A DNA stretch of 64,000 nt from NCBI GenBank assembly GCA_026398735.1, contig JAPLSH010000003.1, forward strand, positions 1-64,000. The letters run 5' to 3'. The notes beneath the pieces were generated by a model. That model saw nothing but the letters and a program-made list of their open reading frames with translations. It was not told the DNA's origin and ran no database searches. Made by a program: the position numbers and the translations under genes. The DNA comes from Pseudomonadota bacterium. GTDB lineage: Bacteria > Pseudomonadota > Gammaproteobacteria > Steroidobacterales > Steroidobacteraceae. This document shows, in pieces, positions 14,630-60,349 of this stretch; position 1 is the stretch's first letter, and each line of letters opens with the position of its first letter.

Positions 14630-14644
14630 GCAAGCGCCGTGCCA
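14630..14644 (-). promoter_or_regulatory. Sigma54 (-24/-12) promoter of the flg operon
   Basis: The minus strand reads TGGCAC (14644-14639), GGCGC spacer, TTGC (14633-14630): a full match to the RpoN consensus TGGCAC-N5-TTGC. Transcription should begin near 14618, about 40 nt before the flgB ATG. Class II hook/basal-body operons under RpoN plus a FleQ or FlrC-type activator are established in Pseudomonas and Vibrio. Confidence 0.88.
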
Positions 14645-14847
14645 GATCGGAAATCCGAGGGCATTGATGCATCACTCCTTGTATAGGCACACAAAGGGTC
14701 TGCTTCAGTAGCTGCGAAACAGCCAACCGGCAATCGACTGCCGGTCTTGTCTCAAACCGGAAATTCATCGCCTGCCGGCTGTGCCAACACTGGTTTTAAG
14801 CGGCAATTGATTGCAGACAACGGGCTGCACAGCGGCGCGCCCTCGGT

Positions 14848-14862
14848 TGGCACGGTGTTTGC
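14848..14862 (+). promoter_or_regulatory. Sigma54 (-24/-12) promoter of the second flagellin operon
   Basis: The plus strand reads TGGCAC (14848-14853), GGTGT spacer, TTGC (14859-14862): another complete RpoN match. The expected start is near 14874, leaving a 40-nt leader with a GGAGA ribosome site before the ATG at 14914. Because flgA, flgM and flgN follow the flagellin with tiny gaps or overlaps, this promoter probably also supplies the anti-sigma factor and chaperone. Confidence 0.88.
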
Positions 14863-52187: not shown

Positions 52188-58072
<5,885 letters not shown>

Positions 58073-58256
58073 CAGACATCCCTTTGGGGCAGGCACGTTC
58101 ACTAGCGGGGAAAAAGCCCCCACCAGACGTCCCACCCATGCCAAAACCGAGCTACCGCTACCGGCAGAAATGAGAACCGCAGGCCTGCTGGCCGCGCGCG
58201 GGACTGGCAGGCCAGTACCCGGGCAAGGCGCGGCGCCAGCGCCACGCAGGAAGCCA

Positions 58257-58284
58257 ATCATACTAGCCCAAGGCGGGGGGTCAA
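58257..58284 (-). promoter_or_regulatory. Sigma70-type promoter of gltB-gltD-ligI
   Basis: The minus strand reads TTGACC (58284-58279), a 16-nt spacer and TATGAT (58262-58257). The start would be near 58250, leaving a leader of about 178 nt before gltB. That leader is GC-rich with several possible stems but no riboswitch I recognise. Together with the next entry it accounts for most of the gene-free stretch 58073-58436. Confidence 0.55.
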
Positions 58285-58848: not shown

Positions 58849-59478
58849 ATGACTGCACAGCGCGCCCAGGACGTCCTCGACTTTTGGTTCGGGGACGCTC
58901 CTGGTGCCGTCGATACGCTGCCCCAGCGCCTGCGGTTCTGGTTCGGCGGCAACGACCCCCCTGAAGTGCTCATGGTCCGCGACGAGGACCTGGAGCGTCG
59001 CTTCCTGCCACTGACCGAGGCTGCCGCGCGCGGCGATCTGGACAGCTGGAGCGGCAGCCCTCGCCGGCAACTGGCCCTGATTCTGCTATTGGACACTTTT
59101 CCCCGGCATATCTGGCGCGGTACCGAACGGGCCTTTGCCCAAGATCCCAAAGCGCTTGCGCTAACGCTGCAGGGCCTGCAGCAGGGCGCCGACGCCACAC
59201 TGAGCGCGCTGGAACGGCTGTTCTATTACTTGCCGCTGTCGCGCAGCGAATCTGCGGCCATCCAGGAAGAGTCGTTGGCGGCATTTCGCCGGCTGCCCGA
59301 CGAAGCACCCGAGGGCTGTCGCGACGCACTGCTGGCGGCGCTGGTAACAGCCGAGGAAAACGCCGCACTGATCCGCCGTTTCGGGCGCTTTCCACAGCAC
59401 AACCAGCTGCTGGGCCGGCGTAGCACCGGCATCGAACAAGCGTTCCTGCGCGAACAGTCCGTCACCGGCAGGCCTTGA
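58849..59478 (+). CDS. DUF924 family protein
   Basis: 209 aa from the ATG at 58849. All-helical DUF924 (TPR-like) protein. Family stretches: AQDVLDFWFGDAP, RQLALILLLDTFPRHIWRGT, ERLFYYLPLSRSESAAIQEE, RFGRFPQHNQLLGRRSTGIE. Function unknown in all organisms I know of. It lies on the plus strand, and its 3' end faces the terminator of the small RNA transcribed from the other strand. Confidence 0.9.
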   Translation: MTAQRAQDVLDFWFGDAPGAVDTLPQRLRFWFGGNDPPEVLMVRDEDLERRFLPLTEAAARGDLDSWSGSPRRQLALILLLDTFPRHIWRGTERAFAQDPKALALTLQGLQQGADATLSALERLFYYLPLSRSESAAIQEESLAAFRRLPDEAPEGCRDALLAALVTAEENAALIRRFGRFPQHNQLLGRRSTGIEQAFLREQSVTGRP

Positions 59479-59482
59479 GACC

Positions 59483-59514
59483 AAAAAAAACGCCGCGACA
59501 GGAATCGCGGCGTT
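59483..59514 (-). terminator. Rho-independent terminator (minus strand)
   Basis: Reading the minus strand: AACGCCGCGA, loop TTCCTG, TCGCGGCGTT and then T-run. The stem is 10 bp and the run, including stem T, is at least eight T. This is a textbook terminator for minus-strand transcription. On the plus strand it has no U-run, so it is not the DUF924 terminator. Confidence 0.92.
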
Positions 59515-59574
59515 GAGGGTAACGATCACCGGGGGGGGGAAGGTGATTCGCGAGCTGTCAGCTAAGACTGCTTG
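59483..59574 (-). ncRNA. Candidate sigma54-dependent small RNA with C9 loop
   Basis: From the predicted start near 59574 to the terminator the RNA is about 90 nt and carries no reading frame with a ribosome site. Predicted folds in order: AGCU-GAC-AGCU, then AUCACC/GGUGAU enclosing a loop of UU plus nine C, then the terminator stem. C-rich loops occur in sRNAs that pair with G-rich ribosome sites, such as Xanthomonas sX13; nitrogen-controlled RpoN sRNAs are known (NrsZ of Pseudomonas). The loop here would pair with runs such as GGGGGAA. Expression and targets are unproven; the SPOR transcript could also read in from upstream. Confidence 0.62.
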
Positions 59575-59585
59575 ATCTAGATAAA

Positions 59586-59600
59586 GCAATCAGCGTGCCA
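59586..59600 (-). promoter_or_regulatory. Sigma54 (-24/-12) promoter with no downstream protein gene
   Basis: The minus strand reads TGGCAC (59600-59595), GCTGA, TTGC (59589-59586), an exact RpoN match. Transcription would start near 59574 and meet a terminator at 59514-59483. It is in the intergenic region behind the SPOR lipoprotein gene. Of the three perfect sigma54 promoters in the window, the other two serve flagellar operons. Confidence 0.82.
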
Positions 59601-59651
59601 ACTCGCGAGCCGCGTTAGCGCGTATCCCGCGCATCCGGTAGTTGGATTTTA

Positions 59652-59688
59652 TGCACTGATGGCGCTCAGCTTGCACCACAGCAGTGCG
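59652..59688 (-). promoter_or_regulatory. NtrC-like enhancer sites upstream of the sigma54 promoter
   Basis: A 17-bp element at 59672-59688 reads TGCACC-N5-AGTGCG (plus strand), 11 of 14 defined positions of the NtrC consensus TGCACCA-N3-TGGTGCA. A half-site TGCAC lies at 59652-59656. Their centres are 20 bp apart, about two turns of the helix, and are about 86 and 106 bp upstream of the predicted start. This spacing fits an enhancer for RpoN. Other activators with similar sites cannot be excluded. Confidence 0.5.
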
Positions 59689-59698
59689 AATCCCGCCA

Positions 59699-60349
59699 TC
59701 AGGGGTGGTAGACCACGCAGGACTGACCGCCTGCAGCCAGGCGACTGCACAGCGCCTTGGCGGCGGCCTGACTGGGCTGGGGCACTTTGAGCCGGAACAC
59801 CGCCTTGGCGCCCGCCTTACCCTCGGCGATCTGGTGAGTGCTGCCTGCCAACTCACGGCTGTAGCGCTTTTCGATTGTCTGCCACTGAGCCTGCGCCTTG
59901 GCGCGGCTGGAGAACGCGCCGATCTGCGCACCATAGCCTGAAGCCTTGGCAGAGCTGGGCTTGCCAGGCACGGCTGCCGGCTTGGGCGGCGGGACTGCTT
60001 GCTGGGCCGGTTGCAGCGGCGCGGCCGCCGGTGCCGCGACGACAGTCGGTGTCGCAGCTACCGGGGACGGCACCTCTACTACTGGCATCGTGTCACCCGC
60101 CGGAGCCGGCGCAACCACGGCCGAGGCCGGCGTATCACCGACACTCATTGCTGCGGTCTCGGTGACCATCAGAGCGCTGGCACGAGTGCGTGCCTCGGCT
60201 ACATGACTGCTATCCGGGTGCTGGCTGACAAAATGGCTGTAAGCCAGGCTGGTATCGGCAGCCTGTGCGGCACGCCAATCATCTTTGTCGCCACTGCAAG
60301 CGGTCAGTAACAGCGCGCTGCCCAGCACGCCCAATATCAGTCTGCTCAC
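59699..60349 (-). CDS. SPOR-domain lipoprotein (paralogue of 23147-23863)
   Basis: 216 aa from a GTG directly behind the previous stop. Lipobox LLLTAC. Then DWRAAQAADTSLAYSHFVSQ-HPD, the same motif as in the other SPOR lipoprotein, a Pro/Ala/Val-rich linker (about 70-130), and the SPOR domain (GYGAQIGAFSSRAKAQAQWQ, VFRLKVPQPSQAAAKALCSR). It would bind denuded glycan from the outer membrane. Third gene of the minus-strand set receiver, YheT, SPOR. Confidence 0.85.
   Translation of the reverse strand: MSRLILGVLGSALLLTACSGDKDDWRAAQAADTSLAYSHFVSQHPDSSHVAEARTRASALMVTETAAMSVGDTPASAVVAPAPAGDTMPVVEVPSPVAATPTVVAAPAAAPLQPAQQAVPPPKPAAVPGKPSSAKASGYGAQIGAFSSRAKAQAQWQTIEKRYSRELAGSTHQIAEGKAGAKAVFRLKVPQPSQAAAKALCSRLAAGGQSCVVYHP

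Follow-up and report, generated by a model that had tools for sequence, protein, structure and literature searches.

The candidate RNA locus between the DUF924 and SPOR genes

The window, by which we mean the whole 64,000-nt stretch of DNA that was analysed, contains a candidate small RNA gene between a DUF924 gene (58849..59478, plus strand) and a gene for a SPOR-domain lipoprotein (59699..60349, minus strand). On the minus strand the order is an NtrC-type enhancer site, a sigma54 promoter, the predicted RNA and a terminator, with the SPOR gene upstream of the RNA (stop at 59699) and the DUF924 gene convergent with it (stop at 59478). The promoter, TGGCACGCTGATTGC (59586..59600, minus strand), is an exact match to TGGCAC-N5-TTGC. 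The enhancer, GCACT-N5-GGTGC (59673..59687, minus strand), matches 9 of the 10 positions of the NtrC core, and its centre lies 106 bp upstream of the predicted RNA start at 59574, which is placed 12 nt beyond the promoter end at 59586. For site scoring we used general consensus sequences of sigma54, NtrC and IHF sites. There may be a second, weak NtrC half-site, AGTGCA (59652..59657, minus strand), for which we noted RGTGCA, by eye, in 5 of 6 aligned congeners. Also near the RNA gene, a minus-strand ORF (53600-58261) resembles, by eye, the large subunit of glutamate synthase, a nitrogen-metabolism neighbour.

The predicted RNA is 92 nt long (~59483..59574, minus strand); its ends are set by the promoter and the terminator, and it is further supported by its fold and by matches to the two RNA models described below. 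It consists of three stem-loops, all given here on the minus strand: a 5' stem-loop (59552..59572) that is nearly invariant within the genus; a middle hairpin (59522..59551), supported by the fold and by covariation in 63 members of the RNA family, whose loop is UU plus C9; and an intrinsic terminator (59489..59514) with an 11-bp stem, T8 and a tail to 59483, supported by sequence, fold and covariation. The C9 run in the sequence of the middle loop (59531..59539), which we propose as an anti-Shine-Dalgarno seed, has counterparts in the C runs of 5-9 found in the eight genus members. Folding of 59577-59482 yielded -35.2 kcal/mol (z -5.93), and 0 of 200 shuffled sequences were as good.

The first-pass annotation of this DNA had claimed the exact promoter, the NtrC-type site about 106 bp upstream, the UU plus C9 hairpin and a terminator, and all of these are present, the terminator stem being 11 bp rather than the 10 bp claimed. 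Its statement that no protein gene lies in between is true of genes of known families, none of which was found between the DUF924 stop (59478) and the SPOR stop (59699), but a minus-strand ORF of 142 aa (59589-59161), antisense to DUF924, crosses the RNA. Bearing on this ORF, the differences in RNA length among relatives are not multiples of three.

In the 64,000-nt window, the promoter pattern is seen 3 times versus 0.59 expected. The other two occurrences are divergent exact sigma54 promoters at 14630-14862, and the flagellar-type ORFs after them read, by eye, like FlgB and flagellin. The NtrC pattern is seen once, versus 0.86 expected, and thus the NtrC site from a single genome is no better than chance; it is the comparative evidence across relatives that raises the promoter and the NtrC site above chance.

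Conservation of the RNA and its promoter

By blastn, the region is present in 5 of 8 congeners, and the SPOR and DUF924 neighbours are kept wherever the contigs extend that far; short blastn matches (L008-L012) were left unused. A model, R1, built from an alignment of only the RNA part of the genus sequences, and therefore excluding the promoter, matched 7 of the 9 genus genomes at E ≤5e-8. The match in another (G007) reached only E = 8e-4, but an exact promoter is present there and the locus passes with the second model, R2. The R1 match in G008, a genome that is 85% complete, has no promoter and no copy was accepted, leaving one of nine genus genomes without an accepted copy. R1 also matched loci outside the genus. 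Of the 21 that were fetched, 11 have an exact TGGCAY-N5-TTGC close to the RNA; the ten without a promoter (L056, L057, L060, L062, L063, L066, L067, L070, L072 and L074) were terminator-like and were dropped. A promoter-free pattern scan of a public genome collection returned 25 loci, all from metagenome-assembled genomes (Gammaproteobacteria, Proteobacteria or, for three, Steroidobacteraceae). An exact promoter lies within 400 nt in 24 of these; the L081 stretch ends 95 nt upstream, and G144, with apparently the same gene at the same contig position, has an exact promoter at -251.

The first-pass annotation had proposed a covariance search of related genomes. Model R2, trained on the RNA core of 27 sequences with the promoter excluded, found this core in 63 of 217 Steroidobacteraceae genomes at E ≤1e-7 (≥38.8 bits), spread over 11 of 25 genera, although membership is partly by construction, since most of the training sequences are among the 63 members. 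Hits with E >1e-7 were dropped, so that 154 of the 217 genomes are misses, and a gap separates 38.8 from 36.6 bits. R2 was also run on 396 genomes sampled from the order, some of them from the family itself, and no non-family genome there scored above 35.3 bits. In 51 of the 63 members, a SPOR-like ORF in the same orientation lies upstream of the RNA.

The stems of the RNA are also conserved as structure. Across the 63 members, 98.0% of cells are paired and 9 of 15 pairs have changed on both sides; none of 500 shuffles equalled the real alignment in any of five measures, with the qualification that the alignment was fitted to the tested structure and thereby favours it. By these sequence comparisons, this is an RNA family with a conserved structure in the Steroidobacteraceae, a family of environmental bacteria.

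An exact -24/-12 promoter lies on the RNA strand, 26-251 nt upstream, in 62 of the 63 members. In the remaining member (G139), the contig ends 218 nt upstream, and the promoters of its genus mates are at 227 and 244. Those 62 promoters are the sole exact matches on the RNA strand in 211,084 nt, and the controls gave none in reversed sequences and none on the opposite strand. The first-pass annotation had named conservation of the promoter and the C-rich loop in relatives as the result on which its proposal would stand or fall; alongside the promoter in 62 of 63 members, the C-rich hairpin is kept in 63 of 63. The NtrC pattern, expected nearly once in the window alone, would allow promoter, enhancer and terminator to be chance matches with no RNA gene behind them, but against the exact promoter in nearly every member and covariation exceeding 500 of 500 shuffles we consider this scarcely credible.

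Outside the counted set, L007:1505-1619 (G018 C1, ~2,634,220) combines another exact -24/-12 promoter with a C-rich stretch and, after it, a strong terminator. It is ~28 kb from the counted RNA copy of G018 (C1:2605789) and looks like a separate sigma54/C-rich RNA, which is uncounted here.

The distance between promoter and core distinguishes a minority of members. In g15 (7 of 7) and g11 (2 of 3, the third being cut), promoter and core are separated by 219-251 nt, and this interval holds a conserved ORF of 60-67 aa (L131, L136, L137, L142, L144, L145 and L147 in g15; L135 and L153 in g11). In g15, the differences in this ORF by codon position are 310/221/586, a third-position excess; two copies were compared with Pfam and neither matched a family above the cut-off. 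The transcript of g15 and g11, with both the ORF and the C-rich hairpin, is possibly a dual-function RNA. These ORFs also speak for a different reading of the whole element, as primarily the 3'-terminal part of a sigma54 transcript whose hairpins stabilise or terminate an mRNA with no action in trans. We judge this reading unlikely, given that in most members the interval is too short for such an ORF (26-131 nt between promoter and core in 53 of 62) and that the C-rich loop, for which a terminator has no need, is retained throughout the family.

Two enhancer types and their candidate activators

The site upstream of the promoter differs between the window's genus and the remainder of the family. 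Within the genus, GCMCY-N5-RGTGC (9-10 of 10 core bases) is found upstream of the promoter in 7 of 8 members, and the eighth (G004) has an NtrC-type site at 8 of 10 core bases. Outside it, 52 of the 54 members with a promoter in hand have the palindrome TGAC-N7-GTCA, which starts 68-81 nt upstream of TGGCA, and G170 and G172 have this palindrome one base off. Neither site crosses this boundary: the palindrome is found in 0 of 8 members of the genus, and the NtrC-type site in 0 of 54 outside it. In the same DNA, the rates of the NtrC-type site and the palindrome are 0.033 and 0.021 per 125 nt, sites themselves included. Non-genus members also have an IHF-like site, mostly ~30 nt upstream of TGGCA, with a mean fraction of control windows as good of 0.03; in the window's genus this fraction is 0.68, and the IHF-like site is missing.

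The features of an NtrC regulon are all present in the window's genus: a -24/-12 promoter, an NtrC-type site ~100 bp upstream and an ntrC gene. In the genome from which the window comes (G000), a single ntrC exceeds the curated cut-off (689 bits versus 558.6). The glnA and PII genes are classic NtrC targets, and the NtrC-type motif, checked in 19 of 30 fetched loci, occurs in G000 ahead of glnA, at two sites, and ahead of a PII gene, with gene names assigned from translations; the -24/-12 matches there, TGGCATGAACCCTGC and TGGCACGGTTTCTGC, are imperfect. Genome-wide, the NtrC pattern is in modest excess over a backward control (10/6 in G000, 9/4 in G002, 9/1 in G003 and 4/2 in G006).

This modest excess, together with the 27 stretches of G000 with a match to the profile of the NtrC family (nine or more spanning much of it, one over the curated cut-off), leaves some room for a reading in which the RNA is real and sigma54-driven but GCACY-N5-GGTGC is read by another enhancer-binding protein and nitrogen control is lacking. 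The occurrence of the same motif before glnA and the PII gene, at like distances from the -24/-12 match, argues against it, and we regard it as quite unlikely.

For the palindrome, the candidate activator is PilR. TGAC-N7-GTCA lies upstream of the pilA gene adjoining pilR in all 19 genomes that yielded both a pilin and a promoter, four of which belong to the window's genus. This count derives from a search for pilR in 35 genomes, 31 of which were above threshold and gave 30 loci; 11 loci fall outside it, 10 with no pilin in the locus and that of G006, in which the pilin has no promoter match. Among further pilin-like hits, a second one in G067 has a promoter but lacks the palindrome, and that in G172 lacks a promoter. 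Upstream of pilA in G000 (L168; C18, ~75,000), two TGAC-N7-GTCA sites stand 20 bp apart, versus one in other genomes. None of the nine other exact sigma54 promoters of G000 is preceded by the palindrome, and a scan of nine genomes found it in six, mostly away from sigma54 promoters other than that of the RNA. Since it precedes pilA in 19 of 19 genomes and other G000 sigma54 promoters in 0 of 9, TGAC-N7-GTCA is most simply a predicted PilR site. The enhancer of the RNA outside the window's genus is the same palindrome as that of pilA beside pilR, which places the RNA there in a putative PilR regulon.

Because the enhancer elsewhere in the family is of the pilA/PilR type, nitrogen control would be limited to the window's genus, and because the wider family has no NtrC site, such control would not be a property of the RNA family. 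The nitrogen-controlled small RNA of the first-pass annotation is thereby narrowed: for the window's genus it is supported by the NtrC-type site in 7 of 8 members, the motif shared with glnA and the PII gene, and ntrC itself, and it does not extend to the other genera with their PilR-type site. The activator of the RNA seems to have been swapped between PilR, in most of the genera that carry it, and NtrC, in the window's genus. The PilR tree places that genus in one clade (94/96), but gives no direction for the switch, since g11, g1 and the remainder meet in an unordered fork at its root and both paralogue outgroups are on very long branches. We give even chances to a fuller version, in which a PilR-controlled anti-Shine-Dalgarno RNA in most carriers was rewired between PilR and NtrC on the branch of one genus, with the IHF-like site gained or lost, and has a dual function in g15 and g11. 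What sequence comparison establishes is the conserved RNA with its structure, its promoter, the two enhancer types, and the sharing of those enhancer types with glnA/PII and with pilA.

The C-rich loop, candidate targets and related small RNAs

By a crude split, the hairpin's longest C run measures 5-9 within the genus and 3-6 outside it, and, by the same kind of split, a further C run of at least three is found in the terminator part of 52 of 55 non-genus members. In Xanthomonas, the C-rich loops of sX13 are described in PMC3771888 as repressing mRNAs that have G-rich motifs close to the start, without a need for Hfq and with effects on type IV pilus genes. By analogy, because sX13 loops act in this manner, the C-rich loop here should block G-rich ribosome sites.

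The first-pass annotation had suggested targets with such sites. We counted G7-N3-9-ATG against a backward control, a count in which one G run may be scored several times, and obtained 8/2 in G000, 16/2 in G002, 5/3 in G003, 7/1 in G005, 20/14 in G006 and 12/6 in G001; of these 68 rows, 49 loci were read. In six genus genomes, ORFs of at least 150 aa with G7 3-9 nt before ATG have signal-peptide-like starts in 18 of 26 cases, compared to 16 of 81 others from the same loci and the window (Fisher p 6e-6, using a home-made signal-peptide rule, and with three of the 26 being orthologues of one gene: L230, L237 and L252). The comparison is crude and no more than suggestive; it points to exported and outer-membrane proteins as perhaps the main targets. 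The 26 include a TonB-receptor plug protein as well as an exported protein that recurs in three species. The latter (L252, L237 and L230 in G000, G002 and G003) has a G run at its ribosome site and is a candidate target; its G000 copy, the only one compared, matched no Pfam family. RNA-target duplex energies were set aside, as they had no control.

The difference in C-run length between genus and family, and the weakness of the target evidence, would also suit an RNA with the enhancer and promoter described here that binds a protein (e.g. Hfq) and does not pair with ribosome sites. With the pairing of sX13 C-rich loops to G-rich mRNA motifs (PMC3771888) as the precedent against it, we think this improbable. 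Transcription, the identity of the binding proteins, the blocking of ribosome sites and the targets are what we infer.

Neither the window nor 20 related loci gave an Rfam match at the gathering score. Weak hits to suhB/mmgR, ncS54 and asX2 were below gathering scores and membership was not accepted; MmgR identity (RF00519, suhB) was rejected at 24.9 bits versus 41. GlmY/GlmZ and the Qrr RNAs have RpoN promoters with a two-component activator. The same arrangement is described for CrcZ/CrcY (CbrB-RpoN) in PMC8657755. All of these differ from the window RNA in activator and mode of action, and none gave an Rfam match. Identity with ncS54 of Burkholderia (RF02871; PMC5688073) was rejected at 17.9 bits versus 43.

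The closest in design is MmgR (alpha-r8) of Sinorhizobium meliloti, a 77-nt RNA that is NtrC-induced, with RpoN among the listed sigma factors (PMC7143759), and that has three stem-loops with an anti-Shine-Dalgarno motif in the first loop (PMC7143759, PMC9170634). The window RNA likewise has an NtrC-type site, a sigma54 promoter and three predicted stem-loops, but MmgR is alphaproteobacterial, and the C run of the window RNA, its proposed anti-Shine-Dalgarno seed, is in the second loop rather than the first. The sX13 RNA is similar in its three stem-loops and C-rich loops; it differs in that the text of PMC3771888 mentions no sigma54 control and lacks the word RpoN. Among the families in Rfam, the scans gave no sX13 match. 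NrsZ of Pseudomonas aeruginosa is, according to PMC9308961, induced by RpoN and NtrB/C under nitrogen limitation, 226 nt, processed, encoded beside ntrC and marked by the motif ACAGGCAG. The window RNA is not NrsZ: it is 92 nt, lies on contig C29 while ntrC is on C10, and has no ACAGGCAG in its 92 nt. Of the two comparisons drawn in the first-pass annotation, sX13 thus survives, as an analogue in mechanism. Searches of the open-access literature turned up no small RNAs of Steroidobacter or the Steroidobacteraceae and no PilR-linked small RNA.

The reading we favour, and hold to be fairly probable, is of a sigma54-dependent, trans-acting RNA of ~92 nt, controlled by NtrC in the window's genus and by PilR elsewhere, whose C-rich loop represses mRNAs. 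When nitrogen runs short in the window's genus, the site ~106 bp ahead of the start would be occupied by phosphorylated NtrC, which would activate the RNA from its RpoN promoter along with glnA and the PII gene. Transcription would stop at the RNA's own terminator, and the exposed C-rich loop would pair with G-rich ribosome-binding sites and repress a set of mRNAs, perhaps chiefly ones that encode exported and outer-membrane proteins. Outside this genus, PilR would induce the RNA at the same time as pilA.

The exact sites make this reading of the RNA and its activators directly testable. If true, it would add an RNA under nitrogen control to a gammaproteobacterial family that has received little study, and would point to a small RNA acting within the PilSR pilus system, of which we found no example in the open literature searched. 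The larger finding, beyond nitrogen control, seems to be a conserved sigma54 small RNA with an apparently swapped activator. One small RNA gene would have remained in the same genomic place, with its sigma54 promoter and effector loop kept and its activator exchanged, and with the activator the controlling signal would have been exchanged as well.
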